DNA of 32,978 nucleotides from Candidatus Nanopelagicaceae bacterium. Lineage in GTDB: Bacteria; Actinomycetota; Actinomycetes; Nanopelagicales; Nanopelagicaceae. Below, piece after piece: positions 1,097 through 32,789 of the stretch (positions are counted from its first letter, which is position 1; each line of letters starts with the position of its first letter). The stretch lies in the NCBI GenBank assembly GCA_009691185.1, contig SHVD01000007.1, positions 1 through 32,978 on the forward strand, given 5' to 3'. The notes beneath the pieces are model-generated. The model was not told the DNA's origin and did not search any database. It saw only the letters and a program-made list of their open reading frames with translations. The position numbers and the translations under genes were made by a program.

Positions 1097-1099
1097 TGA

Positions 1100-2092: not shown

Positions 2093-2101
2093 ATTCACAA
2101 T

Positions 2102-2107: not shown

Positions 2108-2169
2108 GGAGCGTGTTGGATTAGTGAATACGCTTCGGATATTGAGATAGCAGATCGGAATTGGTGAAC

Positions 2170-2919: not shown

Positions 2920-3164
2920 TGAATCCCCTTAATTATTATCGCTTTGGCGCATACGCCATACTTGCTATGGGACTAATAAATTTGCGCTATCAAACAGGCA
3001 GCGAAGCAAATTTACCTAAAAGCTCAGCTTTAATACTACTTGGCTTAGCGGTCCTATTACTTACTTTTATTCCAGCCTTAAAGAACTTATTCTTATTAAA
3101 AATAAGTAAAGTGGTGGGAATTCTGGGATTAGTAGCATCGATTGTCTACGGCTTTCTAATTTAA
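2919..3164 (+). CDS. Small integral membrane protein of unknown function
   Basis: 81 aa, starting at an ATG that shares one base with the SDR stop codon. Three hydrophobic segments are visible: around residues 7-22 (YRFGAYAILAMGLINL), 34-50 (SSALILLGLAVLLLTFI) and 60-80 (ISKVVGILGLVASIVYGFLI), with short polar loops. I do not recognise the family. It lies in a tight rightward run with a DnaX-tail-like protein and a secreted muramidase, with gaps of a few bases or less, so it is likely co-transcribed with them. No function is assigned. Confidence 0.65.
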   Translation: MNPLNYYRFGAYAILAMGLINLRYQTGSEANLPKSSALILLGLAVLLLTFIPALKNLFLLKISKVVGILGLVASIVYGFLI

Positions 3165-3168
3165 GTTG

Positions 3169-3429
3169 ATGGATTTAGAACAAATAAAATCAAGATGGAA
3201 TGAGGTCTTAGACCTTCTGCTTGAAAATAATCGGATCATTTGGCTAGCCTTTTTTGATGCCAGATTGGTCTCCTTTGAAAAGAATCAATTAACCTTAGAT
3301 TTTGCTGATAGTCAGAAATTTGCAAATCCCCATGACTTTAAAGCTAGTCGTAATCCAGCACACACTCAGGCTTTAATCGATGCAATTACAGCAATTTTTG
3401 GCATCGCACCTACCATAATAGAGCGGTGA
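3169..3429 (+). CDS. Stand-alone protein resembling the C-terminal domain of DNA polymerase III gamma/tau (DnaX)
   Basis: 86 aa from ATG 3169 (TTG 3166 is also possible). The pattern 'IKSRWNEVL ... RIIWLAFFDARLVSF ... LTLDFAD ... F' followed by an amphipathic 'ALIDAITAIFG' helix looks like the small alpha/beta domain at the end of actinobacterial DnaX. There, a W-x-E-V-L helix is followed by 'W' and 'L.L.F' strands. Here it is a separate gene with no ATPase domain, between a small membrane protein and a GH25 muramidase, overlapping the latter by 4 nt (GTGA). It could be a free-standing copy of that domain or a protein with a convergent pattern. Function is unknown; the similarity is judged by eye. 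Confidence 0.55.
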   Translation: MDLEQIKSRWNEVLDLLLENNRIIWLAFFDARLVSFEKNQLTLDFADSQKFANPHDFKASRNPAHTQALIDAITAIFGIAPTIIER

Positions 3430-12827: not shown

Positions 12828-13247
12828 TTAGGTGCCTTTAACGCCGACAGCATTTTGTAGCCAGGTAATGATCTCATTGGTGGTTGCACCGGGAGTGAAA
12901 ATTTCACCAACACCTCTACTTTTTAAATTCTCTTTATCTGCCTCTGGAATTATTCCACCCCCAAAAATTACAATATTTTGAGCGTTCGCCTCTTTGAGTA
13001 AAGTTAAGATGCGATCAAAGATACTCATGTGCGCACCAGAAAGTATTGAAAGCCCAATCGCTTGGGCATCTTCTTGTATCGCTGTTGCAACAATCTGCTC
13101 TGGGCTTTGATGAAGTCCGGTATAAATTACTTCACATCCGGCATCTCTCAACGCCCGCGCTACAACCTTTGCGCCACGATCATGCCCGTCCAAACCAGGT
13201 TTAGCTACAACAACACGTATGGGGGCAACTTGGGTTTTTTGCACCAT
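12828..13247 (-). CDS. Coenzyme B12-binding small subunit of an acyl-CoA mutase
   Basis: 139 aa, the size of stand-alone small subunits such as IcmB or HcmB. The B12 'base-off/His-on' signature is complete: [12 protein letters not shown] with the DxHxxG core, LSILSGAH (SxL), and FGGGIIP (GG). It should carry adenosylcobalamin and pair with the separate large subunit encoded 2.4-4 kb away at 15632-17122. The gene is transcribed away from meaB with a 41-nt divergent gap and heads a leftward unit with the formamidase-like hydrolase. This ties the mutase to the aromatic pathway rather than to a propionate operon. No B12 riboswitch is visible upstream. Confidence 0.9.
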
Positions 13248-13275
13248 GGCTTCAACTTATCATGAAATTTTATCG

Positions 13276-13281
13276 TAGGGT
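13276..13281 (+). promoter_or_regulatory. Candidate -10 for a leaderless meaB-ligase transcript
   Basis: TAGGGT (TANNNT type) ends exactly 7 nt before the meaB ATG, the spacing expected if transcription starts on the A of ATG. There is no Shine-Dalgarno in the short 41-nt gap, which it shares with the divergent B12-subunit gene. Confidence 0.35.
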
Positions 13282-13288
13282 TTAGACC

Positions 13289-14053
13289 ATGAGCCAAAAA
13301 ATTGATCCAGAGATCCTGCGTGAAGTACAGCAGGGCAATAGACAAATTTTGGCAAAGGCAATTACCCAGATTGAAAACTCAAATCAAAAAATTGAGGTTC
13401 CTGATCTAACCTCTTCAATACAAGTTTTAGGGGTTACTGGTGCTCCAGGTGTTGGAAAATCAACAACAGTTAATTGTCTGGTTAAATACTTGCGCCAAAA
13501 AAATCTATCGGTTGCCGTTTTAGCAGTTGATCCCTCATCTCCAATCTCAGGAGGTGCATTACTTGGTGATCGAATCAGACTTACTGAACATTTTACTGAC
13601 GCAAAAGTTTTTATTCGCTCCCTTGCTACCAGGGGGCATCTTGGTGGGTTGTCAGAGTCCACGGAGGCTATTTTAAAATTAATAAAACATGCAGCATTCG
13701 ACTTTATTATTGTTGAAACAGTCGGCGTCGGTCAAAGTGAGGTTGAGGTAATGGGCGTAGTTGATACTGTGTGTGTCGTTTTAGCTCCTGGCATGGGTGA
13801 TGGTATTCAGGCTGCAAAGGCTGGATTATTAGAAATTGGTGATATCTATCTAGTGAACAAATCTGACCGAGAAGGAGCTGAACAAACAAAGGTAGATATT
13901 GAAAAATCCATTGCAATGTCTGCGCTAATCAGAAATAATAGTTTTTCTTGGACCCCGCCAGTCTTACTAGGTTCAATGCAGCAGGACTTAGGAGTGACAG
14001 ATCTGATCTTGCAGATCGAAAATCATAGAAAGGCTAGAAATCTTGAAAAATAG
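13289..14053 (+). CDS. meaB: MeaB/ArgK-type GTPase, mutase chaperone (short form)
   Basis: 254 aa G3E-family P-loop GTPase. Walker A is GAPGVGKST (about residues 51-59), the family motif DPSSPISGGALLGDR follows, then FIRSLATRGHLGG, the switch/Walker B ETVGVGQSE and guanine-specificity NKSD. Proteins of this group load adenosylcobalamin onto acyl-CoA mutases and protect them from inactivation. Usual length is about 310-340 aa; here the C-terminal helical arm that mediates dimer formation is missing after ENHRKARNLEK, so it is a compact version. It is divergent from the B12-binding subunit and overlaps the downstream CoA ligase by 11 nt, tying mutase maintenance to aromatic CoA activation. Confidence 0.88.
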   Translation: MSQKIDPEILREVQQGNRQILAKAITQIENSNQKIEVPDLTSSIQVLGVTGAPGVGKSTTVNCLVKYLRQKNLSVAVLAVDPSSPISGGALLGDRIRLTEHFTDAKVFIRSLATRGHLGGLSESTEAILKLIKHAAFDFIIVETVGVGQSEVEVMGVVDTVCVVLAPGMGDGIQAAKAGLLEIGDIYLVNKSDREGAEQTKVDIEKSIAMSALIRNNSFSWTPPVLLGSMQQDLGVTDLILQIENHRKARNLEK

Positions 14054-15635
14054 GAGCACTCAAGTAGATAGCTTTGCATTCGAAAATTTACCTGAAGCTT
14101 CTAGTTGGCCAGATTTTATTTTAGATCATCCAAGTGCTACCTATCCAGAGTATTTAAATGCCAGCACTGAGTTACTGGAAAAGACGATTGCCCTGGTTGG
14201 GGGTAATAAAATTGCTCTCATTGCAGCAGATGCAACATTGACTTACCTACAGATGCTGCATTTAGTAAATCAAATAGCAAATTACTTTCAAGAGCAAGGT
14301 GTAGTTTCTGGCAATAGAATTGCCATTAGGAGTCCAAATAATGCTTTATCAGTGGCAATTTGGCTGGCAATTTTGCGTGTGGGCGCAATCGCAGTAACTA
14401 CAATCCCACTTCAACGTGCTTCTGAGTTAGAAAAAATTGTTGATATTGCCAAGGTTCAGTTTGCTTTAATTGATCACCGCTTCATGGATGAGTGGAATGG
14501 GGTTACAAATTTTCAAGGAGAAACCTACGTCGTAGGAGGTGATAGTGATTTTGATAAGCAGGTATCGCTTCAATCTGTTGATTTTACTGCCCACAATACG
14601 TTATCAACTGATGTCAGTATCTTAGCCTTCACATCTGGCTCAACTGGCTTGCCAAAAGCAACAATGCATTTTCACCGAGATATATTGGCAATTGCAGATA
14701 CTTTTTCCCAACATATTGTTAAGCCAACTGCTGATGATATTTTTGCAGGTAGCCCGCCAATTGCTTTTACCTTTGGCTTAGGTGGGCTAGTGATATTTCC
14801 ATTAAGAGTTGGAGCCACCTCAGTGTTGCTTGAAAATGCGGCCCCAGCAGTGCTCTTAGATAAAATTATTGAGCACAAGGTCACTTGTTTGTTTACCGCC
14901 CCAACTGCATATCGGGCCATGCTCCCGCTTTTATCGGCTAAGCAGCCATCAACTCTTCGAAGGTGTATTTCAGCAGGTGAGCATTTACCATTGGCTACTT
15001 GGAACGCATGGTTTGCCGCAACTGGAAATAAATTAATTGATGGAATTGGTGCGACAGAATTACTTCATATTTTTATATCAGCGAGTGATGATGAAATAGT
15101 GCCAGGCATGACTGGTAAACCAGTGCCAGGTTATCAAGCAAAAATTGTCAATGAAGATTTTCAAGATGTTGCAGATGGGGAGCAAGGATTCTTAGCAGTA
15201 AAAGGACCAACAGGTTGTAGATATTTAAATGATGCAAGGCAAGAAAAATATGTAAAAGATGGTTGGAATTTAACTGGAGATATTTATACTAAGAGTGCAG
15301 CCGGATATTTCAAATATGAGTCCCGCGCTGATGACATGATTATTTCAAGTGGATACAACATCGCAGCCCCAGAGGTTGAAAATGCTCTTCTACTTCATGA
15401 GTGTGTGGCAGAGGTAGCAGTCGTAGGAGCTGCTGATCTTGATCGGGGAATGATTGTTTCAGCCTATGTTGTACTGCGCCCTAATTACTCCCCTTCAGAT
15501 GCTCTGTGTAAGGAGCTGCAAGATCATGTTAAAAATAAAATTGCGCCATATAAATACCCCAGATCACTGCAATTTGTAGATACCCTGCCGAAAACAACAA
15601 CTGGCAAATTACAAAGATTTAGATTAAAAAGCTAA
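14043..15635 (+). CDS. AMP-forming aromatic acid CoA ligase, 2-aminobenzoate-CoA ligase-like
   Basis: 530 aa ANL-superfamily ligase. Start TTG 14043 is inside the meaB end; no ATG lies near, and the family's opening 'VDsFa.eNLP...WP.f' (here QVDSFAFENLPEASSWPDF) needs this start. The AMP loop FTSGSTGLPKAT, the motif MHFHRDILAIADTF, IAFTFGLGGLVIFPLRVGA, the A8 hinge YESRADDMIISSGYNIA and the catalytic Lys in PKTTTGKLQRF are all present. This set resembles the anthranilate/benzoate-CoA ligase branch. It would convert anthranilate, ATP and CoA to anthraniloyl-CoA, the substrate of the ACMR-like flavoprotein at 25643. Benzoate, salicylate or a related acid remains possible. Its stop codon overlaps that of the convergent mutase gene. 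Confidence 0.75.
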   Translation: MKNRSTQVDSFAFENLPEASSWPDFILDHPSATYPEYLNASTELLEKTIALVGGNKIALIAADATLTYLQMLHLVNQIANYFQEQGVVSGNRIAIRSPNNALSVAIWLAILRVGAIAVTTIPLQRASELEKIVDIAKVQFALIDHRFMDEWNGVTNFQGETYVVGGDSDFDKQVSLQSVDFTAHNTLSTDVSILAFTSGSTGLPKATMHFHRDILAIADTFSQHIVKPTADDIFAGSPPIAFTFGLGGLVIFPLRVGATSVLLENAAPAVLLDKIIEHKVTCLFTAPTAYRAMLPLLSAKQPSTLRRCISAGEHLPLATWNAWFAATGNKLIDGIGATELLHIFISASDDEIVPGMTGKPVPGYQAKIVNEDFQDVADGEQGFLAVKGPTGCRYLNDARQEKYVKDGWNLTGDIYTKSAAGYFKYESRADDMIISSGYNIAAPEVENALLLHECVAEVAVVGAADLDRGMIVSAYVVLRPNYSPSDALCKELQDHVKNKIAPYKYPRSLQFVDTLPKTTTGKLQRFRLKS

Positions 15636-17122
15636 AAAGCTTTTGTTGGTTGCCACTTTCCGTAAACTTTGCGTAACTCCCCCACAATCTCACCTACCGT
15701 TGCATAGTTCTTAACCGCTAGCACTGTAGCTTCCATGATGTTCTCACCTGATTTTGCCACCGCTAATAGATTGCTTAAGGCAGCTGCGACAACTTGATTA
15801 TCCCTACTATTACGCACTTGCTTCAAGGAGTTCACCTGATCAGATTCACTTTTAGGATTAATCTCAAATTGCTTAAATGGTGCTGACTCAGACTGAAATA
15901 TGTTTACTCCAACTACTTTTTTTGTACCCGATTCAATAGCATTTGTTAGCACATAGGCATTTTCAGATATTTCATTGACAAAATATCCATTGTTAACACA
16001 CTCCAGTGCGCCCCCTCGTTTTTCAATACTTTCTAATAATTTCCAAATTTCACTCTCTAATGAATCGGTCATGCGCTCCAATTCAAAACTGCCAGCAAGT
16101 GGATCTGTTGAGTCCAATATGCCACTTTCGAAAGCAACTACTTGCTGAGTTCGCAGCGCCAATGTAGCGGCCTCCTCCGTTGGAACTCCTAGTGCTTCAT
16201 CAAAGGCGGAGACATGCATAGTTTGAATTCCACCCAATGCAGCAGCCATCATTTCAATTGATGTTCGAATAACATTATTCATCGATTGTTGCGCTGTTAA
16301 TGATGAGCCAGCAGTAAATGCAAAAATTCTTAATTTTTCAGATGCTGGATCTTTTGTTTGGTATTTTTCCCGCATTAATTTTGCCCAAACTCTTCTTGCT
16401 GCACGAAATTTTGCAATCTCAGGTAGAAAATCAATATTTGATGATAAAAATGTAAAAAGTGTAGGAGCAACTGAATCAACTGAAACCCCGCGCAAGACTG
16501 CCCGATCTAAGTACTCCCGGGCATTAGCAAATGTAAATGCAACCTCCTGGACAGCTGTAGATCCGGCCTCTCGTATGTGATAACCACTCATAGCCAATGG
16601 CACCCATTTTGGAATTTTAGTTGCGATATATTCAATTACATCAACAGATAGTTTCAGCCCAGCCTCAGCTGGAAATATTTGTGTACCACGGGCAACATAC
16701 TCTTTTAATACATCATTTTGAATAAACATTCCAAATTTATTTGGATCAACACCTTGTTTTTCTGCTAAGGCAATAAACATGGCAGCCCAGATATAACCGA
16801 TAGAATTTGCAGTTGTTCGAACTTGGCTGATCTTCTCTAATGGAATTCCATCCATTAATATCTCAATATCTGCTAGCGAATCTATTGCTACTCCAACTCG
16901 ACCCACCTCACCTAAGGCAAGTGGATCATCAGAATCAAGACCTAGTTGAGTTGGTAAGTCCAAGGCCACGCTGAACCCAGTTAGACCCTGATCTAGTAGA
17001 AGTTTAAAACGTGCATTTGTCTCAGTTGGTGTGCCAAATCCACCGTACTGACCCATTGTCCAAACACCTGATGAGCTATTTATGCCTCTCGTGTAAGGAT
17101 ACTCGCCGGGATTTTCTAACAT
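15632..17122 (-). CDS. B12-dependent acyl-CoA mutase large subunit, unusual variant with short N-terminus
   Basis: 496 aa TIM-barrel subunit of the methylmalonyl/isobutyryl-CoA mutase family, without the B12 domain. It begins at MLENPGEYPYTRG, only 3 nt after the ligase stop, so the roughly 50-60 residue leader found in relatives is absent. Compared with Propionibacterium methylmalonyl-CoA mutase, the Tyr89 position is Tyr (WTMGQYGGF) and the Arg207 position is Arg (QNDVLKEYVAR). Isobutyryl-CoA mutase has Phe/Gln there, so this enzyme should bind a carboxylated acyl-CoA. His244 is kept in SGYHIREAG. The loop with Tyr75-Thr77-Arg82 is three residues shorter and rewritten (INSSSGV), and TIRQY has become TMGQY. 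The substrate may therefore be bulkier than methylmalonyl-CoA, for example an aryl-succinyl-CoA. It is last gene of a five-gene leftward unit. Confidence 0.85.
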   Translation of the reverse strand: MLENPGEYPYTRGINSSSGVWTMGQYGGFGTPTETNARFKLLLDQGLTGFSVALDLPTQLGLDSDDPLALGEVGRVGVAIDSLADIEILMDGIPLEKISQVRTTANSIGYIWAAMFIALAEKQGVDPNKFGMFIQNDVLKEYVARGTQIFPAEAGLKLSVDVIEYIATKIPKWVPLAMSGYHIREAGSTAVQEVAFTFANAREYLDRAVLRGVSVDSVAPTLFTFLSSNIDFLPEIAKFRAARRVWAKLMREKYQTKDPASEKLRIFAFTAGSSLTAQQSMNNVIRTSIEMMAAALGGIQTMHVSAFDEALGVPTEEAATLALRTQQVVAFESGILDSTDPLAGSFELERMTDSLESEIWKLLESIEKRGGALECVNNGYFVNEISENAYVLTNAIESGTKKVVGVNIFQSESAPFKQFEINPKSESDQVNSLKQVRNSRDNQVVAAALSNLLAVAKSGENIMEATVLAVKNYATVGEIVGELRKVYGKWQPTKAF

Positions 17123-17125
17123 TAT

Positions 17126-18685
17126 TTATTTTCCTTCAGCTTCAAGTTGCTGCTTCAGTAATTTCTTTGAGATCTTACCAGTTGAATTCAATGGAAACTC
17201 AGTGACAATTCGTAAATCTTTTGGCTTCTTATATGAGGCCATTTTTAACTTACAATGTTCTAAAATCTTACTTTTAATTTCATCCTGAGTAATCAGCGCA
17301 TTAGGATCAATTGTCACCATGGCAGTTACTCGCTGACCCCACTCAACATCATTGATGCCCATAACAGCAACCTCTCGTACCTCAGGTATTTCAGCAATCA
17401 CATCCTCGATCTCACGCGGATATATGTTGTAACCACCACTAATAATCATCTCGCCTTTGCGATCTACTAAGTAAAGTCGATTATCCCCATCAAATCGGCC
17501 AAGATCACCTGTGTGCAACCATCCATCTCTAACGGCTTTAGTGACAGTTGCATCTTGTCCAGCAGCTCCGTAATACCCATGCATAACATGATCACCGCGA
17601 GTTATCACTTCACCAATTTCACCCACGGGTACCTCATGACCTTTCCCATCCACAATTAATACTTCAACACCCACACATGCATGACCAGCACTTGTTAACA
17701 CCTCTGGGTTTTTAAATAAACCTAATTCATGGTCGGCCTCATTTAAGACCGTGACAGGTGGAATCGCCTCCACTAGACCGTAGTACTGCACCATATTTTT
17801 ACTGACCCGCTCGTAACATTGTTTTATCTGCTCCGGTGGCATTGGCGCACCTGCGTAGCCAAGTAGTTTTAAATTTGATAATTTTTCAGTTGTTATCCCA
17901 TCTACGGTTAGTAATCGAGCCACCATCGTTGGAACTAAGGCGGTTGCATTTCCACCTCTATTTTGGATCACATCAATTAACTCCTCAGGATCATACTTTT
18001 CCAAAATTATCTGTTTGCCGCCATAGGCAAAGTAAGGCAGGACAAACAAACCACTTGTGTGTGTAATAGGACCGGCGTGAATCCAACAATCACTTTCATT
18101 TGGTATACGCCTTAAAATATCTGAAATTATGTTACTCATACTTGCAGTTCTATTTCGATGAGTTCTAATTGCCCCTTTTGGATTACCTGTTGTGCCAGAG
18201 CTGTAATTTAATGAAACGAGTGCATCAGGCGAGATCGCTGAAGAAAAAGGATTTGACTCTTGCTTGGCTAAGAAGGCCTCATAAGGCAAAGTTTTTTCAT
18301 GATCACCATGAATAAGAATCACATGCTCTACAAGACCTCTAACCGGTGCAGAGGCATCCCAGAATTTAGCATCGACAATAAGCGCCTTCGCCTGGCAATC
18401 ATTTGCAATACGCACCCAATCATTAGGGTGTAGGCGATAATTAAGTGCAACCCGACATAAACCAGCTGTGCTGATACCCAAATCAGTTTCAATGTAGCTA
18501 CTTTGGTTGTACTGAAGATCTAAAACTCGATCACCTAAATTTAATCCCAAAGATTTTAAGCCTCTGGCAAGCTGAAAGATTCTTGAACCAATTTGTCCAT
18601 AAGTCATTGAGCCTTCTGAACTTTCTACCGCTACTTGGTTGCCATATTTTTTCATAGATCTTGAGACAAGTGTTCCTACATCCAT
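17126..18685 (-). CDS. AMP-forming acyl-CoA ligase (FadD-like), substrate unknown
   Basis: 519 aa ANL enzyme. P-loop YSSGTTGNPKGAIRTHRN (about residues 168-185), acyl-pocket segment GPITHTSGLFVLPYFAYGG, A5 motif MVQYYGLVEAIPP (the usual Y-G-x-x-E reads YGLVE), A7 WLHTGDLGRFD, A8 DRKGEMIISGGYNIYPREIE and the catalytic Lys in LNSTGKISKK are in order. The start ATG shares one base with the ADP-forming synthetase stop (TGATG), and the mutase begins 3 nt after it ends. Position between the synthetase and the mutase suggests that it makes the CoA thioester used by the mutase, perhaps indoleacetate or an aryl-succinate. That is inference; a medium-chain acid is the default. Confidence 0.75.
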   Translation of the reverse strand: MDVGTLVSRSMKKYGNQVAVESSEGSMTYGQIGSRIFQLARGLKSLGLNLGDRVLDLQYNQSSYIETDLGISTAGLCRVALNYRLHPNDWVRIANDCQAKALIVDAKFWDASAPVRGLVEHVILIHGDHEKTLPYEAFLAKQESNPFSSAISPDALVSLNYSSGTTGNPKGAIRTHRNRTASMSNIISDILRRIPNESDCWIHAGPITHTSGLFVLPYFAYGGKQIILEKYDPEELIDVIQNRGGNATALVPTMVARLLTVDGITTEKLSNLKLLGYAGAPMPPEQIKQCYERVSKNMVQYYGLVEAIPPVTVLNEADHELGLFKNPEVLTSAGHACVGVEVLIVDGKGHEVPVGEIGEVITRGDHVMHGYYGAAGQDATVTKAVRDGWLHTGDLGRFDGDNRLYLVDRKGEMIISGGYNIYPREIEDVIAEIPEVREVAVMGINDVEWGQRVTAMVTIDPNALITQDEIKSKILEHCKLKMASYKKPKDLRIVTEFPLNSTGKISKKLLKQQLEAEGK

Positions 18686-20766
18686 CAGGAGTTGCCTCGA
18701 TTCGAAGTTATCTGTGTCGATGAGTATGCGGCATCAAGGAGCCAAACACCATCTGGTAGAACGGTCACTGGATTTAAATCTAACTCGCTACCTTCTGGCC
18801 AATCTTTTACCGCATCAGTGATTCTTAACACTGTTTGAACAAATGCTGCCCGATCTGCTGCTTTAAAACCTCGGACACCAGCAAGCAAATGAGCCAACCT
18901 AGTCTCATCGATCATTTGATTTACAATCTTTGCATCGACGGGCAAAATGCGCAATGAAACATCGGAAATGATCTCAGTTAACAGACCACCGATACCAAGG
19001 GTCAAAACTTTTCCCAGCGAACTTGAGGTAATACCTACTAATGCCTCAACTCCTTTGGGTATAAAAGTTTCAACTAAAACCTTATTGCCTGATTTATTAT
19101 TTGGATCAAGGTGTGAAAGTCGCTCAAAGGTTTCTACAGCATTTATATTAGTAATATCTAATGCGACTGCGCCAGACTCACTTTTGTGTAGGAGGCCTGG
19201 AATTATTGATTTCATAACTGCTCTACCACCAACTTTAGCAATTGCCGCTAACACATCTGATTTATCTGTGACGACTACTGATTGGGGAACTGCGATACCG
19301 ACGCAGGCAAATGCAGCCTTTAATTGATCCTCGGTGACATCTGCAGCCGGTGTTGCCAACGGTTTACACAATGAAGTTCGATTCACGCGCTGAGTTGGAA
19401 TTGAAACCTTATGTAGAACGCCAAGCGCTCGAACTGCTCGTTCTGGAGTAGGAAAAATTGGCAGATTTGCTGTTTTAAACAGCTGATCAGCTTGTGGTGC
19501 TAGTGATTTTGACCCAGTCCGAGCAACAACTATTGGAATTTGGCGAATATCTCGACTGCCCCTCAACGCATCTGCAATTGCCTCAACATCTTTACCAACT
19601 AGCACACAAAAAGTTGCAATAATTGCATCAACATTTGGATCCTGAGTTAATACTTCAACACATCGCTTGAATAAATCTGGTGATGACATTACAGCTGCCG
19701 TAACATCAACTGGATTTGAAGTATTTCCATAACTAGGAACAATTTGATTTAATTCACTAATAGTTTTTTTTGAAAATTTTGCTAACGTTAATCCATGAAT
19801 TTCTAATGCATCAGTGCCAAGAATTCCACTCCCACCTGATGTCGTAAGAATTGCAACCCTTGATCCAGGCATAGATATTTTGGCAGAGAAGATGCTGCCA
19901 GCATCTAAAAGATGCTCTACATCATCCACGCGCACCGCACCTGCTGCAACTATTGCAGCATCAATAACTCGGTCCTCTGTGGCGAGTGCACCAGTATGTG
20001 AGGCTGCAGCTTGCGCACCAGCTGCTGATCTACCACTTTTTAAGATTGCAGTTGGTTTAGTCGCACAAACTTTCTGCAACAGAGTGAAATCTGAGAATGA
20101 TTCTATGTAAATAAGAATTCCATCCACATTTTTATCATCTGCCAAAGTTCTGGCAACTTCAAGGGCGGTTACATCTGCTTCATTGCCAGTTGTTACTACA
20201 TAGCCAATTGGAATATCTCGATCATTTGCCAATGAAAATATGCCATATCCCAGCGCGCCAGATTGACTGATCAAGGCAATATTGCCAACCGCTAATAAGG
20301 TATCAGCTCCAGAAAAGACTGGTGAAAATGTTGCTGCCAGTTTTGATACACCTGCTGCAGAGCCGATGCAATTAGGCCCAACAATTCTCAACCCAGATTT
20401 TTTAGAAATTTGAATCAACTTGTCCTGTGCCGCAGCGCCAACCTCACCTGCCTCAGCAAAACCTGAGGACATTACAACTGCCACTGCCACCTTAGAATCT
20501 GCACAGTCTTGTACGGCCTGGCTAACTAAATCAAATGGCACCATGATCAGTGCAAGATCAATCTCTTTACCAACATCTTTAATATTTTTATAGGTTTTAA
20601 AGCCTAAGATATTTTCACCTTTTGGATTAATTGGGTAGACCTCACCTACGTAGCCATACTTTTGAATATATTCCAACGGAAGTCGCCCGATGGCACCGAC
20701 TCTCTCAGTTGCCCCAATTACAGCGACAGATTTAGCCGACCAAAGAGCAGCGATTTGATCGCTCAA
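18685..20766 (-). CDS. ADP-forming acyl-CoA synthetase (fused alpha-beta, acetyl-CoA synthetase-ADP family)
   Basis: 693 aa. The N-terminal CoA-binding domain starts SVAVIGATERVGAIGR and is followed by SSGFAEAG, IVGPNCIG and a ligase domain with ISQSGALG. The phosphorylated His is in AASHTGALA (about residue 260), and a C-terminal ATP-grasp domain contains GGRAVMKSIIPGLLHKSE (about 520-540). These enzymes run acyl-CoA + ADP + Pi <-> acid + CoA + ATP. In archaea they pair with 2-oxoacid:ferredoxin oxidoreductases such as IorAB to harvest ATP from aryl-acetyl-CoA. The same pairing within this locus suggests indoleacetyl-CoA or another aryl-acyl-CoA as partner. It overlaps ridA by 4 nt and the FadD-like gene by 1 base. 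Confidence 0.85.
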   Translation of the reverse strand: MSDQIAALWSAKSVAVIGATERVGAIGRLPLEYIQKYGYVGEVYPINPKGENILGFKTYKNIKDVGKEIDLALIMVPFDLVSQAVQDCADSKVAVAVVMSSGFAEAGEVGAAAQDKLIQISKKSGLRIVGPNCIGSAAGVSKLAATFSPVFSGADTLLAVGNIALISQSGALGYGIFSLANDRDIPIGYVVTTGNEADVTALEVARTLADDKNVDGILIYIESFSDFTLLQKVCATKPTAILKSGRSAAGAQAAASHTGALATEDRVIDAAIVAAGAVRVDDVEHLLDAGSIFSAKISMPGSRVAILTTSGGSGILGTDALEIHGLTLAKFSKKTISELNQIVPSYGNTSNPVDVTAAVMSSPDLFKRCVEVLTQDPNVDAIIATFCVLVGKDVEAIADALRGSRDIRQIPIVVARTGSKSLAPQADQLFKTANLPIFPTPERAVRALGVLHKVSIPTQRVNRTSLCKPLATPAADVTEDQLKAAFACVGIAVPQSVVVTDKSDVLAAIAKVGGRAVMKSIIPGLLHKSESGAVALDITNINAVETFERLSHLDPNNKSGNKVLVETFIPKGVEALVGITSSSLGKVLTLGIGGLLTEIISDVSLRILPVDAKIVNQMIDETRLAHLLAGVRGFKAADRAAFVQTVLRITDAVKDWPEGSELDLNPVTVLPDGVWLLDAAYSSTQITSNRGNS

Positions 20767-21158
20767 ATAACTGCCACCCCTTCTATTTCAAGGAGTGCTT
20801 GTGTGTCCCAGAGCTTGGTTACTCCCACCAAAGTCATTGCAGGATAATTTTTACCAATTAATGCTTGCCAAATTTTTCCAATTTCCTTTGAATTAGCCCG
20901 ATAATCAACTGGGTCGACTGAATAAATATTAAGCTTTACCAAATTCTCTGGCGTCCCACCAGCCTCTCTCAGTGCTGTAAGTAAATTGGTTAAAACCCGC
21001 TCAAATTGTTCAACAATTGTGACTCCTTCAATGACACCATTTTTATTTAAAGCGGTCTGCCCTGATAGGTAGATGAGTTTGCCACCATCAATAACCATGG
21101 CATGGGAGAAGCCAACTGGTTTTGCAAGTCCTTCAGGATTTATTTTTTTAATACTCAC
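20763..21158 (-). CDS. RidA/YjgF family protein lacking the substrate-carboxylate Arg
   Basis: 131 aa, full length for the trimeric Rid fold, with LIYLSGQTALN and a C-terminal LLEIEGVAVI strand keeping the usual Glu. RidA deaminates enamines and imines. In canonical RidA an Arg in 'PARS.V.V' (Arg105 in E. coli) clamps the carboxylate of the amino-acid-derived imine; here that site reads YPAMTLVGV, with Met. A substrate without a free carboxylate, such as a CoA-thioester enamine, would fit. The known anthranilate cluster of Azoarcus evansii also encodes a protein then labelled translation inhibitor, the old name of this family. Here it would hydrolyse the 2-amino group of the ACMR product. It sits 1 nt after an SDR and overlaps the synthetase. 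Confidence 0.82.
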   Translation of the reverse strand: MSIKKINPEGLAKPVGFSHAMVIDGGKLIYLSGQTALNKNGVIEGVTIVEQFERVLTNLLTALREAGGTPENLVKLNIYSVDPVDYRANSKEIGKIWQALIGKNYPAMTLVGVTKLWDTQALLEIEGVAVI

Positions 21159-21159
21159 T

Positions 21160-21909
21160 TCAATCTCCTTTTACGATTTGAGCCAAGCCATTTTTTTCTG
21201 GCTGGTCGATAAATGAAATAGCCACCTGAGCTACCTCTTGTGGAGTTAATAGTCTGCCGCCAGGAAGTTTTGCCAAGAGCAGGCTCTTTACCTCATCAAA
21301 ATCCTTACCAGTCCTAGATGCGGCTGCTTGCAAGGAACGCTGCGTCATTGGAGTATCAACATAACTTGGACAAACTGCGTTAACTGTGATTCCATACTTT
21401 TCCAATTCTGCCGCAGCGGATCTGACTAAGCCAATTACACCATGCTTTGCCGCAGTGTATGCGCACACATTTGGCTCTCCCTCTAGTCCTGCTGTACTCG
21501 CAATTACAATGATTCTGCCAAACTTGGCGGCCTTCATTAGCGGAACTGTCGCTCTGATGTATTGAAATGGCGCAGTTAAATTCAAAGCAATTGAGTTTTC
21601 CCAAATCTCATTTGTAGTCTTCTCAATAGGAGCTGCAGCCCCATCACCAGCATTTATAATTAAGACATCAAGTCCACCCCAGTTGGCATTAATTTCTTTG
21701 ATAGTTGATTCGCCGCTGTCTGGATCCGTGGAATCAGCAACAATTGTCAGAGTTTTATTTGAGCGCCCGGCCACAACAGCTTTTAAATCTATTAAATTTC
21801 TGGCTGTAATCGCGACGCTATGGCCTGCATCTAAAAGCTGGATTGCAATCTCGCGTCCAATACCTCGACTGGCGCCGGTAATGAGAATTCTGAGCGGCGA
21901 AGTTCTCAT
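21160..21909 (-). CDS. SDR, 3-hydroxyacyl-CoA/ketoreductase-like
   Basis: 249 aa from ATG 21909, chosen because CGGAGAA lies just upstream; a longer in-frame start at 21936 lacks this. Motifs: ILITGASRGIGREIA at the N-terminus, INAGDGA, catalytic Ser in VIASTAGLEG and YTAAKHG for Tyr/Lys, then VNAVCPSYVDTPMT. The last is the form seen in 3-hydroxybutyrate and 3-hydroxyacyl-CoA dehydrogenases (HSD10/BDH-like). As first gene of the leftward unit SDR-ridA-synthetase-ligase-mutase, it is a candidate for reducing the 5-oxo group of the dearomatised ring, or for oxidising a 3-hydroxyacyl-CoA later on. It is divergent from the thiolase with a 75-nt gap. Confidence 0.8.
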   Translation of the reverse strand: MRTSPLRILITGASRGIGREIAIQLLDAGHSVAITARNLIDLKAVVAGRSNKTLTIVADSTDPDSGESTIKEINANWGGLDVLIINAGDGAAAPIEKTTNEIWENSIALNLTAPFQYIRATVPLMKAAKFGRIIVIASTAGLEGEPNVCAYTAAKHGVIGLVRSAAAELEKYGITVNAVCPSYVDTPMTQRSLQAAASRTGKDFDEVKSLLLAKLPGGRLLTPQEVAQVAISFIDQPEKNGLAQIVKGD

Positions 21910-21984
21910 AAATTCTCCGTTCAAATAATAAATCAATACTCAAATAGGTGAATAAAAATCTCTTAGTAAGCAATAATACGACAT

Positions 21985-23166
21985 ATGAACCAGCGGGAGG
22001 TAATTATCGCAGAAGCGGTTCGTACTCCTTTTGGTCGCTACTTTGGTGGCCTTTCAAAGGTTAGGCCTGATGATCTTCTTGGATTCACCCTTTCGGCGCT
22101 GGCAAAAAAAATTCCTCAATTTAATTTAAATCAATTAGATGATGTTGTCATTGGTGACTCAAATGGAGCCGGTGAAGATAATAGAAATGTTGCAAGGATG
22201 GGATTACTGCTTGCCCAATTTCCACCAACAATTCCAGGTGTAACTGTTAATCGATTATGCGGTTCTGGCGCAGAGGCGGTAATTCAGGCATCACGTGCCA
22301 TTAGAAGTGGGGATAGCGATTTTGTAATAGCCGGAGGAGTTGAATCGATGAGTCGTGCGCCATGGATTGTTGAGCGGCAAAGTAAAGAGCTGCCGACTGA
22401 TCCCACTTTTCACCAGTCAACTGTTGGATGGCGGTTAACCAATCCTTTATTTCCAACTCAATGGACTCAAAGTTTGGGACGTTGTGCTGAAAATGTTGCT
22501 GAACGATTTAATATCTCAAGGCAGGCTCAAGATGAGTGGGCCCTGCGATCTCACCAATTAGCCAGTGTTGCATGGTCAAAAGGTTTTCATACTGGTTTTG
22601 CTACTGAGTTTAATCAGATCCAAATTGATGAATCAATCAGGGTGGCAAGTTCTATCCAAAAACTTGCTGAACTCCCCTCAGCTTTTTCTGACAATGGTGC
22701 TGGGACTGCAGGAAACTCATCTCCAATAAATGATGGAAGTGTAGCAATGTTAATTACGGATCGTCTTGGCTTAGAAAAACTAGAGATCACTGGAATTGGT
22801 CGAATAATTGGTTCACAGGTAGTCGCAACAAACCCAGATGAGTTTACGCTTGCACCGATTTTTGCAATTCATAAGGCACTAGCTAAAACTGGCAAAAAAA
22901 TTGCAGAGATTAAAGTTTGGGAAATTAATGAGGCATTTGCCTCGATGGTTTTGTCAGTTCTTCACGAGATACCAGAGATAGATGTGAATCGAGTAAACAT
23001 TAATGGTGGAGCAATCGCAATGGGTCATCCCATTGGCGCCTCTGCCGCCCGAGTTATTGTTGATTGTGCCCGAGAACTTAAGCGTCAAGGCGGAGGTATT
23101 GGAGTTGCAGCTGCCTGTATTGGTGTAGGTCTTGGTGTTGCCATCATAATCGAGGTTAAAGAGTAA
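21985..23166 (+). CDS. Acetyl-CoA acyltransferase (beta-ketothiolase)
   Basis: 393 aa, typical thiolase length. The acyl-accepting Cys is in NRLCGSGAEAV (about residue 90), GGVESMSRAPW follows, the His is in NGGAIAMGHPIGASAA (about 345-350) and the second Cys in AACIGVGLGVA near the end. The family cleaves 3-oxoacyl-CoA with CoA, releasing acetyl-CoA or succinyl-CoA. It runs toward a BadI/MenB-like hydrolase 9 nt downstream, a rightward pair divergent from the ridA unit. In this locus it could cleave a 3-oxo product of the opened ring. It could also cleave 2-aminobenzoylacetyl-CoA directly to anthraniloyl-CoA and acetyl-CoA (inference). Confidence 0.88.
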   Translation: MNQREVIIAEAVRTPFGRYFGGLSKVRPDDLLGFTLSALAKKIPQFNLNQLDDVVIGDSNGAGEDNRNVARMGLLLAQFPPTIPGVTVNRLCGSGAEAVIQASRAIRSGDSDFVIAGGVESMSRAPWIVERQSKELPTDPTFHQSTVGWRLTNPLFPTQWTQSLGRCAENVAERFNISRQAQDEWALRSHQLASVAWSKGFHTGFATEFNQIQIDESIRVASSIQKLAELPSAFSDNGAGTAGNSSPINDGSVAMLITDRLGLEKLEITGIGRIIGSQVVATNPDEFTLAPIFAIHKALAKTGKKIAEIKVWEINEAFASMVLSVLHEIPEIDVNRVNINGGAIAMGHPIGASAARVIVDCARELKRQGGGIGVAAACIGVGLGVAIIIEVKE

Positions 23167-23175
23167 ACTAATCTG

Positions 23176-23979
23176 ATGATAGAAATCAAAGATTTTACTG
23201 ACATCAAACACGACATTGATGCAGGTGTAGCGATAATTACAATCAATCGACCAGATAGATACAACGCGCTTCGAGGTCGAACAGTTGATGAGCTTTTATC
23301 CGCTTTTAAATTTGCTTGGGTGAATAAACAAATTGGTGCCTTGATTTTAACTGGTACTGGAGAAAAAGCCTTTTGTACCGGAGGAGATCAAAAAGAGCGT
23401 GCTCTTACGGGTAATTATGGTGAGAATGAGACAGGAATGTTTGAAATTGAGGCACTACACAAAGTAATTCGAGCAATTCCAAAACCAGTTATTGCGGCGG
23501 TGAACGGCTTTGCGATTGGCGGTGGCCATGTATTACATGTGCTTTGTGATCTTTCAATCGCATCTAGCACTGCAAAGTTTGGTCAAGTTGGCCCAAGAGT
23601 TGGATCATTTGATGCTGGCTTTGGCACTGCTTATCTGGCCCGAGTTGTTGGTGAAAAACGAGCTCGAGAGATTTGGTTTTTATGTGAACAATACGATGCT
23701 CAAACTGCAGAGCGTTGGGGTTTAGTAAACAAAGTTGTTGAACCAAAGGATCTACTTCCTGCAGCTATGGAGTGGGCAAAAAAAGTTGTCGCACTATCAC
23801 CAACTGCCATTAAGACTCTTAAGCACTCATTCAACGCGGATACTGATCACATTGTGGGAATTCAATCCTTGGCATTTGATGTATTAGATCTTTATACAAA
23901 AACTGGTGAGGCGCAAGAAGGTGGTGCTGCTTTTAATGAGAAGCGAGCACCAGATTATTCAAAGTTTCAAGATAGTTAG
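23176..23979 (+). CDS. Crotonase-fold ring hydrolase, BadI (2-ketocyclohexanecarboxyl-CoA hydrolase)/MenB type
   Basis: 267 aa crotonase. Instead of ordinary enoyl-CoA hydratase features it shows AFCTGGDQ (about residues 69-76), FAIGGGHVLHVLCDL, GQVGPRVGSFDAGFGTAYLAR (given in part: VGSFDAGFG) and REIWFLCEQYDAQTAERWGL, plus a C-terminal NADTDHIVGI and KRAPDYSKF. This pattern is shared by BadI, which opens 2-oxocyclohexane-1-carboxyl-CoA hydrolytically, and by naphthoate synthase MenB. The short central loop and the 'SFN.DT.H..GI' tail favour BadI. No other menaquinone gene is nearby, while deaminated ACMR product would be exactly a 2-oxocyclohexanecarboxyl-CoA. So ring opening to an oxo- or hydroxypimelyl-CoA is the likely job. 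It shares stop-codon bases with the convergent dioxygenase gene. Confidence 0.72.
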   Translation: MIEIKDFTDIKHDIDAGVAIITINRPDRYNALRGRTVDELLSAFKFAWVNKQIGALILTGTGEKAFCTGGDQKERALTGNYGENETGMFEIEALHKVIRAIPKPVIAAVNGFAIGGGHVLHVLCDLSIASSTAKFGQVGPRVGSFDAGFGTAYLARVVGEKRAREIWFLCEQYDAQTAERWGLVNKVVEPKDLLPAAMEWAKKVVALSPTAIKTLKHSFNADTDHIVGIQSLAFDVLDLYTKTGEAQEGGAAFNEKRAPDYSKFQDS

Positions 23980-24686
23980 TTTTCACCCTCTTCTGCAATT
24001 GCGTAATTAGTAATCGCAGTACGTGCATCCCATAGTTCTGGAAAGAAAGTAAAATTATTTAGTCTCGATAATATTTCAACTGGTGTTCCTTGAGTACCTG
24101 AAACTTTTAATCCAATACTTCTCTCAACCACTTTAAAATGTCTATGTCGCCAGAGATACATTCGCTCATCTAGTTCAATTAGTGACTCTGCCAGGAGGTA
24201 AAGATCTTCAAACTCAGTATGGCGAATAAATAATTGAATTAAATCAATTTTTTCGACCCCAAGTAACCGATTAAACTCCACTCCCAGAGGTGGAATAGCT
24301 TTACGAATTGAATTCATACCAGGTGAATCAAAGCCTGAGCCATGACCAAGTGCCCGGCGAACTTGTTGGTAATCCCATGGTGACATCTGCTCCAACATAT
24401 CTAATGACTCATGGCAATACTTAATTGCTAAAAGAATTCTTGGGAAAAGCCGTAGTGCTGATCTAATTTGATTATCTTTCAAATATGCAGCTGCCTGCCC
24501 CGCCTCTGCCGAGGCATGCTTTAACCACAACTCTGAAGTTTGATGAACAACTGTAAACAAGAGTTCATCTCGGTGCTTCCAAGATTCCTTTACCGGTTGT
24601 AATTGAAGCAGCTCACTTAACTTCAGGTATCTTTCATAATCACTTTTACCAACACCGTCTAGAATTTGATCTGGACCATAGCTCAT
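23976..24686 (-). CDS. kynA: Tryptophan 2,3-dioxygenase (compact, divergent form)
   Basis: 236 aa heme dioxygenase, shorter than most bacterial enzymes (about 260-300 aa). The family opening YERYLKLSELLQLQP and HRDELLFTVVHQTSELWLKH place the active-site Phe and distal His (Phe51/His55 in Xanthomonas). Tyr and Arg of DYQQVRRALG match the carboxylate contacts Tyr113/Arg117. The proximal His is in WRHRHFKVVERSIG, and Thr of the GTGGSSG loop persists in SGTQGTPV. The normally invariant SGFQSxQFR segment is changed to SGFDSPGMN, and GTGGSSG is altered too. So it should still cleave an indole carrying a carboxylate, with tryptophan to N-formylkynurenine most likely, while pocket changes could admit another indole acid. 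It follows an SDR by 37 nt. Confidence 0.85.
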   Translation of the reverse strand: MSYGPDQILDGVGKSDYERYLKLSELLQLQPVKESWKHRDELLFTVVHQTSELWLKHASAEAGQAAAYLKDNQIRSALRLFPRILLAIKYCHESLDMLEQMSPWDYQQVRRALGHGSGFDSPGMNSIRKAIPPLGVEFNRLLGVEKIDLIQLFIRHTEFEDLYLLAESLIELDERMYLWRHRHFKVVERSIGLKVSGTQGTPVEILSRLNNFTFFPELWDARTAITNYAIAEEGEN

Positions 24687-25500: not shown

Positions 25501-25642
25501 GTACCTAACATTAACTGCCACATGGATTTATTCCAATCTACTCATGGCGGGGTAGCAAAAAATATATCGCTAGCCTAGTATTCTCGTATTAGATTGAGTG
25601 CAGCGTGGCAATAAAGCATAAGTGAGAGGCCCACACAGGCGT

Positions 25643-28039
25643 ATGAAGATTGTTTGTATTGGCGGTGGCGCTGCTGGTCTGTATTTTTCAATTTTGATGA
25701 AAAAACAAGACCCTCTTCATGAAATTACGGTGATTGAACGTAATCGCCCTTATGACACCTTTGGTTGGGGAGTAGTTTTTTCTGATGCCACCCTCTCAAA
25801 TTTTGTAAAAGCGGATGAGCACACAGCCCGCACTATTTTGCAATCCTTCAACCATTGGGATGATATTGATGTTCGAATCAAAGGTAAGAGCATGATCTCG
25901 GGTGGTCATGGTTTTTGTGGAATTGGCAGAAAGCGCTTGCTAAACATCTTACAAGAGCGAGCAGAAGCACTTGGTGTCAATTTAGTTTTTGAAACAGATG
26001 TTAAAGATGATCAAGAAATTGCCGTTCAGTACGATGCCGATTTGGTGATCGCCTCGGATGGTTTAAATTCAGCAATCCGAACAAAATATTCAGCCACTTA
26101 TAAGCCTGATATCGATACTCGCGTATGTCGCTTTGTTTGGCTGGGGACAAAAAAAGTGTTTAAAGATTTTACATTTTCCTTTATTGAGACAAAATTTGGT
26201 TGGTTTCAAGCACATATCTATCAATTTGATGGCGATACCTCAACATTCATAATAGAAACTCCTGAGGATGTTTGGCAACGTTCAGGTCTGCAAGATATGA
26301 GTCAAGAAGAGGCGATCGCATTTTGTGAAGATTTGTTTGCAAAAGATTTAGAAGGTGCCAAACTAATGAGTAATTCAGCGCACTTAAGGGGCTCCACAAA
26401 TTGGATCAAATTCCCTCGAGTTATTTGTGAGAATTGGACGCAATGGAACAATATCAACGGCAAGGATGTGCCAGTTGTACTCATGGGCGATTCGGCTCAT
26501 ACCGCGCACTTTTCAATTGGCTCTGGCACCAAACTTGCCATGGAGGATGCCATTGATTTCGCTGGATTCTTAAAGGAGCTAGGGGATCGAAGCATGCAGA
26601 ATATTTTGGCTGACTACCAAGAGGTTCGAGGGGTAGAAGTAATAAAGATTCAAAACGCTGCGAGAAATGCGATGGAGTGGTTTGAAAATGCTGGGCAATA
26701 CACTGGGATGGAGCCTGAGCAGTTTAACTACTCACTTCTAACCAGAAGTCAAAGAATTACCCATGAAAATTTGAAGTTACGTGATGCCAATTATGTTGCT
26801 GAGTATGAGAAGTGGTTTGCGACAAAAGCATTTGCCGATGCAGGTTTGCCCCTGCCAAAATCAGGAGCTCAGATTCCACCGATGTTTACCCCATATAAAG
26901 TTCGTGATCTAGTCTTACAAAATAGAATTGTGGTCTCACCGATGGCGCAATATTCAGCTGTTGATGGTCTGCCATCTGATTATCACCTTGTTCATCTTGG
27001 TGCGCGGGCAATGGGTGGCGCGGCGCTAGTGATGACTGAAATGACCTGCACCTCAGCAGATGCTCGAATTACCCCAGGATGTCCTGGGATTTATACGCCA
27101 GAGCAATTAAATGGGTGGAAGCGAATTGTTGATTTTGTCCACACTAGTACTCAGGCGAAAATTGGAATTCAAATTGGTCATGCTGGTGGAAAGTCTTCGA
27201 CTCGTCTGGCTTGGGAAGGTATAGATCAGCCGCTGAAAGAAGGAAATTGGCCGATCATCTCCGCCTCAGCAACACAATATCTTGAAGGTGTCTCACAAAC
27301 TGCTCGTGAAATGACACGTGAAGATATGGATAGAGTTAAATCAGATTTCATTGCCGCCACTAAAGCAGCTGAAGAAGCAGGTTTTGATTGGCTAGAGTTA
27401 CATGCCGCACACGGCTATCTACTCTCTTCATTCATCTCACCTTTAACAAATTTGCGCACAGATGAGTACGGCGGTTCATTAGAAAATAGGATCAAATACC
27501 CAATTGAAGTATTCAAAGCTATTCGTGCAGTTTGGCCAGCAGGTAAACCAATAAGTGTAAGAATCTCGGCTCATGACTGGACAGTTGGTGGAACTACTCC
27601 GGATGATGCTGTTGAAATTGCCCGGGCATTTAAAAATGCTGGGGCTGACATAATCGATTGCTCATCAGGTCAAGTTAGCAAGAAAGAAAAACCTATCTTT
27701 GGTCGTACATTTCAAACTCCATTTGCAGATCGGATAAAGAATCAGGTCGGTATTGCCACAATTGCAGTAGGTGCAATATTTGATGCTGATAGTGCCAATA
27801 CAATTATTGCTGCTGGGCGAGCTGATCTATGTGCAGTAGCACGGCCACACCTTGCAAATCCAGCCTGGATTTTAAATGAAGCTGCCAAGAGTGGCTACAC
27901 AAACATGCCTTGGCCAAAACAATATGTAGCAGCAAAAATCCAACTAGAACGTAATTTAGAGAAAGAAAAGCAACAGGCGGCGGTGGCAAAAAACTCGATG
28001 ACCTTTGAGCAGATTACGCAGAACTTTAATACGCTTTAA
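25643..28039 (+). CDS. Bifunctional 2-aminobenzoyl-CoA monooxygenase/reductase (ACMR)-type flavoprotein
   Basis: 798 aa from ATG 25643; GTG 25622 is in frame but the FAD fold begins right at MKIVCIGGGAAGLY. Residues 1 to about 400 are a group A FAD monooxygenase: GxGxxG, the DG motif in ASDGLNSAIR, and the GD motif in LMGDSAHTAHFSIGSGTKLA. From about 413 an old yellow enzyme domain follows: FTPYKVRDLVLQNRIVVSPM, MTEMTCTSADAR, IQIGHAGGKSS, HAAHGYLLSSFISPLTNLR and DEYGGSLENR. The size and order match the 87-kDa Azoarcus ACMR. That enzyme hydroxylates anthraniloyl-CoA and reduces it to the non-aromatic 2-amino-5-oxocyclohex-1-ene-1-carbonyl-CoA. A salicyloyl-CoA 5-hydroxylase activity is the main alternative. 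The stop codon overlaps that of iorB. Confidence 0.88.
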   Translation: MKIVCIGGGAAGLYFSILMKKQDPLHEITVIERNRPYDTFGWGVVFSDATLSNFVKADEHTARTILQSFNHWDDIDVRIKGKSMISGGHGFCGIGRKRLLNILQERAEALGVNLVFETDVKDDQEIAVQYDADLVIASDGLNSAIRTKYSATYKPDIDTRVCRFVWLGTKKVFKDFTFSFIETKFGWFQAHIYQFDGDTSTFIIETPEDVWQRSGLQDMSQEEAIAFCEDLFAKDLEGAKLMSNSAHLRGSTNWIKFPRVICENWTQWNNINGKDVPVVLMGDSAHTAHFSIGSGTKLAMEDAIDFAGFLKELGDRSMQNILADYQEVRGVEVIKIQNAARNAMEWFENAGQYTGMEPEQFNYSLLTRSQRITHENLKLRDANYVAEYEKWFATKAFADAGLPLPKSGAQIPPMFTPYKVRDLVLQNRIVVSPMAQYSAVDGLPSDYHLVHLGARAMGGAALVMTEMTCTSADARITPGCPGIYTPEQLNGWKRIVDFVHTSTQAKIGIQIGHAGGKSSTRLAWEGIDQPLKEGNWPIISASATQYLEGVSQTAREMTREDMDRVKSDFIAATKAAEEAGFDWLELHAAHGYLLSSFISPLTNLRTDEYGGSLENRIKYPIEVFKAIRAVWPAGKPISVRISAHDWTVGGTTPDDAVEIARAFKNAGADIIDCSSGQVSKKEKPIFGRTFQTPFADRIKNQVGIATIAVGAIFDADSANTIIAAGRADLCAVARPHLANPAWILNEAAKSGYTNMPWPKQYVAAKIQLERNLEKEKQQAAVAKNSMTFEQITQNFNTL

Positions 28040-32015: not shown

Positions 32016-32789
32016 ATGGCTGGATTAGAAAAATTAGCAGCAGGACTGGCATCAGGAGATGTGCAAGTCCTAGATTTAACGGCGCCATTGCATTCAAACA
32101 CCCCAATTTTAGTACTGCCTGAACCTTTTGGTCAGACTGCGACTTTTAAATTAGAGGAGATTTCCAAGTATGACGATCGAGGTCCAGCTTGGTACTGGAA
32201 TAACTTTCATACAGGTGAGCACACAGGCACCCATCTAGATGCACCTAATCATTGGGTAACTGGCAAAGATGGCGATGATGTTGCATCAATTCCACCAAAG
32301 CGCCTAATTGGGCCTGCAGTAGTTCTAGATTTTGTCAAAGAGTCAGCAGCAAATCCAGATTTTTTGCTGGAGGTTTCACACATTGAGTCGTGGGAAAAAG
32401 CCAATGGCCGTATTCCAACTGGGGCATGGGTTCTCTTTCGAACTGGCTGGTCAAAATTTGGTGATGATCCAAAGGCATTCGCAAATGCAGATGACAAAGG
32501 ACCACATACGCCTGGACTACCACCAGCAACTGCAGAATTCCTAGCAACTAAACGAGACATCCTAGGATTAGGAGTTGAAACTGTTGGTATCGATGCCGGT
32601 GGCGCATTTGGCATGGATGTGCCATTTCCTTGTCACAATTACCTACTTGGCAACAATAAGTATGGCTTAACTCAACTTCGAAACTTGGACAAACTTCCAA
32701 CAACAGGAGCCATTGTAATTGCAGCTCCACTGAAAATTGTCGGTGGGTCAGGATCACCAACTAGAGTGCTAGCGTTGATTTCAAAGTAA
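32016..32789 (+). CDS. Cyclase-family metal hydrolase (kynurenine formamidase / isatin hydrolase type)
   Basis: 257 aa of the cyclase family (PF04199-type fold). The metal-binding motif HTGEHTGTHLDAPNHW is complete (about residues 68-83), preceded by WNNF, and LGVETVGIDAG and VPFPCHNYLLGN line the site. Bacterial kynurenine formamidase (KynB) and isatin hydrolase share this fold, both opening or deformylating anthranilate-like amides, often with Mn or Zn. A strong GAGGAG precedes the ATG. It is divergent from iorA and the only gene in its unit, ended by a perfect terminator. N-formylkynurenine, an oxindole-type lactam or isatin are all conceivable substrates; the sequence alone does not separate them. 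Confidence 0.78.
   Translation: MAGLEKLAAGLASGDVQVLDLTAPLHSNTPILVLPEPFGQTATFKLEEISKYDDRGPAWYWNNFHTGEHTGTHLDAPNHWVTGKDGDDVASIPPKRLIGPAVVLDFVKESAANPDFLLEVSHIESWEKANGRIPTGAWVLFRTGWSKFGDDPKAFANADDKGPHTPGLPPATAEFLATKRDILGLGVETVGIDAGGAFGMDVPFPCHNYLLGNNKYGLTQLRNLDKLPTTGAIVIAAPLKIVGGSGSPTRVLALISK

Follow-up and report, generated by a model that had tools for sequence, protein, structure and literature searches.

Rid proteins without the carboxylate-binding arginine in 2-aminobenzoyl-CoA monooxygenase/reductase gene clusters: candidate deaminases of a CoA-bound enamine

Introduction

RidA (YjgF/UK114), the 2-iminobutanoate/2-iminopropanoate deaminase, is found in the company of PLP enzymes. RutC, a 3-aminoacrylate deaminase, is tied to one catabolic pathway and provides a precedent for a Rid protein acting on a beta-enamine; it needs Arg104 and its substrate is a free acid (PMC8113886). 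AmnE, a 2-aminomuconate deaminase, is a Rid protein of aromatic amine degradation that releases ammonia, and is a hexamer with a conserved Arg117 and a free dicarboxylic acid as substrate (PMC6742747). Rid4 to Rid7 lack Arg at the corresponding position (105 in RidA), which is occupied by Trp in Rid4 and Rid7 and is variable in Rid5 and Rid6 (PMC4433059). RidA has also been suggested to play a general part in aromatic regulons (PMC6449761). The literature reports no tie between Rid4-Rid7 and the enzyme considered next.

2-Aminobenzoyl-CoA monooxygenase/reductase (ACMR), the dearomatizing enzyme of the aerobic 2-aminobenzoyl-CoA (anthraniloyl-CoA) pathway, converts 2-aminobenzoyl-CoA to 2-amino-5-oxocyclohex-1-ene-1-carboxyl-CoA, which is a beta-enamine of a CoA thioester. 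The closest described gene clusters are the ACMR/abm cluster of Azoarcus evansii and that of Arthrobacter Rue61a, which combine ACMR with an anthranilate-CoA ligase. The literature searched states no role for the Rid gene of such clusters and draws no link between Rid and 2-aminobenzoyl-CoA; the original A. evansii cluster paper, which may mention the gene, lies outside that search. Here we describe a Rid protein encoded near ACMR in a 32,978-nucleotide stretch of DNA (the window) from a Candidatus Nanopelagicaceae bacterium. It resembles RutC in its tie to one catabolic pathway and its putative beta-enamine substrate, AmnE in belonging to aromatic amine degradation with predicted ammonia release, and Rid4-Rid7 in lacking Arg at position 105.

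Results and Discussion

A Rid-family protein with methionine at the arginine position

The gene and the two codons of interest are as follows.

20763..21158, minus strand: rid, Rid-family protein of 131 aa, GTG start, stop within these coordinates (PF01042, E 2.4e-20)
20835..20837, minus strand: codon of Met108, at the position of RidA Arg105 (translation and alignment)
20787..20789, minus strand: codon of Glu124, equivalent to RidA Glu120, the proposed water-positioning residue (alignment)

The sequence-only reading had described a RidA homologue in which Met replaces Arg, without giving its strand. Alignment to E. coli RidA (reference sequence identical to PDB 1qu9) bears this out, placing Met108 (motif NYPAMT) opposite Arg105, with Glu120 retained. 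Genomes of the same genus, with Rid proteins 98% and 79% identical to this one, also have Met here, as do all 60 Rid proteins found near ACMR in named genomes (see below), so Met108 is no sequencing accident. The protein gives a full-length match to the PF01042 profile (73 bits against a cut-off of 27.3, residues 16-131), but falls below the threshold of TIGR00004, the RidA-type hydrolase model (50 bits, cut-off 106), and of the RutC equivalog model (26 bits, cut-off 169), Met standing at the RutC Arg104 position. Met also stands where Rid4 and Rid7 have Trp. Arg is absent, but assignment to Rid5 or Rid6, in which a variable residue takes its place, goes by the CDD subfamily models. NCBIfam has no curated family for the ACMR-linked clade.

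An AlphaFold model of the single chain (pLDDT 96.4) has the Rid (chorismate-mutase-like) fold. The 50 matches listed in a structural comparison are of Rid/YjgF type (Z 16-20, rmsd 1.5-2.3), with Z about 19-20 against RidA-type structures. By sequence, the best match among solved structures was PDB 5v4f, which we take to be Yersinia Y3550. Y3550 lacks 2-aminoacrylate deaminase function (PMC7221256).

The shared fold, PF01042 membership, SGQ-type loop and Glu120 are features that a housekeeping RidA, protecting against 2-aminoacrylate or iminobutanoate and located here by chance, would also display. We regard that explanation as highly improbable, given a score far under the RidA cut-off, the absence of Arg105, a position on the Arg-less side of the tree and the near absence of this Rid type from genomes lacking ACMR, the last two described below. 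Further differences from RidA are, in the ACMR-linked group, Gly for Asn88 and mostly Ala or Gly for Ser30, and an association with a CoA pathway rather than with PLP enzymes.

Genomic context of rid

On the minus strand, rid forms one tight run with an SDR-family reductase and an ADP-forming acyl-CoA ligase. These and the other features of the neighborhood are listed below.

21160..21936, minus strand: SDR-family reductase, one base between its end and rid (NCBIfam SDR hits; SDR recurrent in ACMR operons)
18685..20766, minus strand: ADP-forming acyl-CoA ligase, 4-base overlap with the rid stop (NCBIfam profile search)
21985..23166, plus strand: thiolase of 3-oxoadipyl-CoA type (NCBIfam profile search)
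23176..23979, plus strand: crotonase of MenB/BadI type (MenB 347 bits, cut-off 380; BadI 310 bits, cut-off 468)
23976..24686, minus strand: diverged tryptophan-2,3-dioxygenase-family protein, 236 aa (PF03301, E 2e-29)
25622..28039, plus strand: ACMR, an FAD monooxygenase fused to an OYE-type reductase, 805 aa (PF01494 and PF00724; NF006101, 1330 bits against a cut-off of 1078)
14043..15635, plus strand: benzoate/anthranilate-type CoA ligase (benz_CoA_lig 350 bits; 52% identical to Arthrobacter Rue61a ARUE_RS22905)
32016..32789, plus strand: cyclase or kynurenine-formamidase-like protein (PF04199; 57% identical to the cyclase of a Deinococcus ACMR-rid operon)

The combination of PF01494 and PF00724 in one protein is the architecture of ACMR, and the window ACMR is 55-71% identical to ACMRs from many rid-bearing clusters. 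It lies about 4.5 kb from rid on the opposite strand and shares no operon with it; the pcaF-type thiolase, the crotonase, the diverged tryptophan dioxygenase and an SDR lie in between. The crotonase is a candidate ring-opening hydrolase for a 2-oxocyclohexanecarboxyl-CoA-like product. ARUE_RS22905 is taken as ARUE_113p00220, the ligase gene adjoining ACMR on plasmid pAL1, the two names being matched by position and product. Anthranilate-CoA ligase activity of the ARUE_113p00220 product has been demonstrated (PMC3534580), and the 52% identity thus suggests that the window cluster includes an anthranilate-CoA ligase.

Several other genes in the window were recorded. The tryptophan-dioxygenase-like gene (23976-24686) and the KynB-like cyclase gene (32016-32789) hint that, ahead of anthraniloyl-CoA, the indole ring of tryptophan or of an indole acid is opened. 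The same island includes, at positions 12828-17122, genes for a methylmalonyl-CoA-mutase-like large subunit, a B12-binding subunit, MeaB and CoA ligases, which are retained beside rid in related genomes; operons of other phyla have an acyl-CoA dehydrogenase and a PRK08258 crotonase in place of the mutase set. Indolepyruvate-ferredoxin-oxidoreductase (IOR)-type proteins (28036-31786) adjoin ACMR, and a pair of this type (67% and 45% identical) also adjoins a second, Rid-less ACMR copy of Paraburkholderia ferrariae (L145). Another contig of the source assembly holds a second ACMR fragment (G000:C51:6027-6383; 85% identical to residues 8-126), which is either a paralogue or sequence from a related strain.

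Residues at the arginine position in ACMR-linked Rid proteins

The search for ACMR covered 296 evenly drawn genomes of Actinomycetota together with a set of named genomes, and the flanks of the hits were retrieved. Most actinomycetotal ACMR loci had a Rid of the window type within approximately 10 kb, and in the named genomes a Rid lay within 10 kb of ACMR at 60 of 80 loci, with Met in 60/60. Overall, the 145 ACMR-associated Rid proteins had Met in 130 cases, Thr in 5, Ile in 4, Val in 3, Leu in 2, Ser in 1 and Arg in none, the residues other than Met belonging to some distant members of the group. Among the 62 other Rid proteins, by comparison, Arg and Ser occurred 21 times each, other residues 20 times and Met never. 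Hence, the expectation that Rid proteins of ACMR clusters elsewhere are always non-Arg held across several hundred genomes.

The 20 of 80 named-genome loci without a nearby Rid proved not to be true absences for the most part, reflecting mostly contig ends or a Rid located farther off. Of 14 genomes in which ACMR had no Rid next to it, 12 carried a Met-type Rid elsewhere. In Caldimonas, for example, it lies slightly past the retrieved flank, in the same cluster as ACMR. A Met-type Rid was not found in a Thermoflexus MAG (L149), nor in a Pandoraea MAG (L103) among the subset of its Rid genes read. In Aromatoleum buckelii, a relative of Azoarcus evansii, a Met-type Rid (L343, 10996) is located apart from ACMR, and its neighbors are a MenB/BadI-like gene and a gene that weakly matches the monooxygenase domain of ACMR. 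A haloarchaeal Haladaptatus plasmid encodes a Rid with Leu at the Arg105 position (L311, 8986-9405), near a benzoate-CoA-ligase-family protein, a 718-aa FAD-dependent monooxygenase and an LLM-class flavin oxidoreductase (1-4553); this locus is possibly a rearranged ACMR system. The proposed Arg-less subfamily extends across Actinomycetota, Proteobacteria and Deinococcus, and probably haloarchaea.

Phylogeny and pocket residues

In a tree of 207 Rid proteins (about 138 columns, with the trait column left out), all ACMR-associated members fell on one side of a single branch, which had a support of only 63. A single change between Arg and non-Arg suffices for the whole tree. The nearest Rid proteins without an ACMR link mostly have Ser at the Arg105 position, with some Ile and Val, and Arg-lessness is therefore older, or at least wider, than the ACMR link. 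The proposal in the sequence-only reading that Arg was lost owing to a thioester substrate is thus not supported as originally stated. The mark of the ACMR branch is Met, not the absence of Arg.

Relative to RidA, the ACMR branch has Gly for Asn88 in 97% of members and Ala or Gly for Ser30 in 89%, changes that would enlarge the space and remove charge around a substrate, as judged from the alignment. Glu120 is invariant (100%) in ACMR-linked and other Rid proteins alike, and Gly16, Tyr at RidA position 84, Gly at 88 and Ala at 117 are almost invariant from phylum to phylum in the ACMR branch. Such conservation bears on whether the protein is an enzyme at all. Its role could be one of binding without catalysis, whether it senses an effector, serves as a chaperone or modulates flux, comparable to the Arg-less Rid4-Rid7; no deaminase activity is on record for Arg-less Rid proteins, and Y3550 alters growth with an aminotransferase in spite of having no deaminase activity. 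Nonetheless, the invariant Glu120 and the nearly fixed pocket positions speak against mere binding, as does the fact that the constant partner is an enamine-producing enzyme, while the regulators of the clusters differ (MarR, PaaX), and we consider this explanation improbable.

Co-occurrence of Rid and ACMR

Across the 296 actinomycetotal genomes, 40 encoded ACMR, 41 the Rid and 39 both (P = 4e-45), so that the Rid was present in 39/40 genomes with ACMR compared with 2/256 without. Results for 200 evenly drawn Burkholderiales genomes were similar (ACMR 26, Rid 25, both 24, P = 1e-27; the Rid in 24/26 genomes with ACMR and 1/174 without), although both P values are overstated because the genomes, which are related, were counted as independent. 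Rid thresholds were placed in the score gap between the high and low hit sets (68 versus 57 bits; 152 versus 68 bits). A chance association is implausible given two phyla and many genera. In two of the three Rid-only genomes (L246 and L247), rid adjoins an acyl-CoA dehydrogenase gene together with a crotonase or ligase gene, and as other pathway genes are present beside rid, ACMR may be located on another contig.

Gene order supports the same association. Proteobacteria and Deinococcus share a recurrent operon in which the genes typically follow the order ACMR, SDR, MarR regulator, crotonase (PRK08258 type), acyl-CoA dehydrogenase, CoA ligase, RidA, whereas in Arthrobacter and Rhodococcus, ACMR, ligase, thioesterase, cupin and an FAH-family protein surround RidA. 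Plasmid pAL1 of Arthrobacter Rue61a encodes a Rid of the window type (ARUE_RS22885) near ACMR and the anthranilate-CoA ligase gene. Kynureninase or tryptophan dioxygenase genes are close by in some clusters, which points to anthranilate derived from tryptophan. The assignment of the window Rid to the ACMR pathway, also made by the sequence-only reading, is supported by its regular membership of ACMR clusters and by the 52% identity of the window CoA ligase to the Rue61a enzyme.

The NCBI name for this ACMR protein type (NF006101) is "bifunctional salicylyl-CoA 5-hydroxylase/oxidoreductase". A deaminase would be of no use on salicylyl-CoA, and the association with Rid and anthranilate-CoA ligase suggests that the name is wrong for most members. 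Where both are present, a true salicylyl-CoA hydroxylase is unlikely. The salicylyl-CoA hydroxylase kind may be represented by some homologues of ACMR that have neither Rid nor pathway genes close by (G377, G422, L149 and, in L145, the copy linked to IOR).

Proposed reaction

We think it likely that the window Rid is dedicated to the 2-aminobenzoyl-CoA pathway and deaminates the ACMR product, an enamine bound as a CoA thioester. The protein would presumably form a trimer, with its active sites at the subunit interfaces, and bind the neutral ring of the ACMR product in a pocket without the carboxylate-binding Arg. The conserved Glu would activate water for hydrolysis of the enamine, which would release ammonia and leave the ketone 2,5-dioxocyclohexanecarboxyl-CoA. 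This beta-keto thioester could then undergo ring opening by a crotonase-type hydrolase and pass into beta-oxidation. The analyses above establish the sequence, fold, subfamily, residue pattern and association with the ACMR pathway; from these we infer the reaction, the step at which it takes place and what Met does.

For the acid of the ACMR product, C7H9NO3 + H2O - NH3 gives C7H8O4. A C7H8O4 CoA ester was found only in anthranilate-grown cells of Arthrobacter Rue61a, in a study whose passages on the ester do not discuss the Rid gene (PMC3534580). As this strain carries the Rid on pAL1, the ester lends the proposed reaction indirect support. The deaminated product may also arise spontaneously, without Rid.

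Deamination could instead occur at another step of the same pathway or on a side product. Its target could be a ring already processed by the SDR or acyl-CoA dehydrogenase, a free acid released by thioester hydrolysis, or a reactive imine derived from 5-hydroxyanthraniloyl-CoA, a compound formed by ACMR under NADH shortage. The same operons do hold SDR, crotonase and acyl-CoA dehydrogenase genes, whose products could act in more than one order, as well as thioesterases in some cases, and the Rue61a study records a hydroxyanthraniloyl-CoA-type ester in Arthrobacter (PMC3534580). The C7H8O4 ester, however, fits deamination directly at the ACMR product, and a free-acid substrate would be expected to favor Arg. 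On these grounds, an action at another step seems unlikely.

Direct action on the CoA-bound ACMR product also has results against it, in that an Arg-to-Ala change abolishes the activity of RidA and RutC, and no deaminase activity had been found for any Arg-less Rid (Rid4-Rid7) up to 2021 (PMC4433059, PMC8113886). The free-acid deaminases RidA, RutC and AmnE carry Arg, whereas the ACMR branch does so in 0/145 cases, a contrast that is expected for a thioester substrate but is a correlation. Arg-lessness is no proof of a CoA substrate, as it is common to the neighboring Ser-type Rid proteins.

Implications

Taken together, we lean towards the view that these proteins form a separate and widely spread Rid subfamily that functions without the carboxylate-binding Arg and hydrolyzes a cyclic beta-enamine in the form of its CoA thioester. 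A PAM motif combined with Gly at RidA position 88 is offered as a signature for annotation. In 2015, Rid proteins lacking Arg105 were described as mysterious, and no activity was yet listed for them in a 2021 paper. With the ACMR product, a Rid lacking the usual catalytic Arg would have its first proposed substrate, and the tie to ACMR makes an open question testable with a concrete and easily assayed compound. If the reading is correct, the Rid family would gain its first enzyme shown to function with no Arg, also its first with a CoA substrate, and the deamination step in the breakdown of anthranilate and tryptophan by the ACMR pathway would be accounted for.
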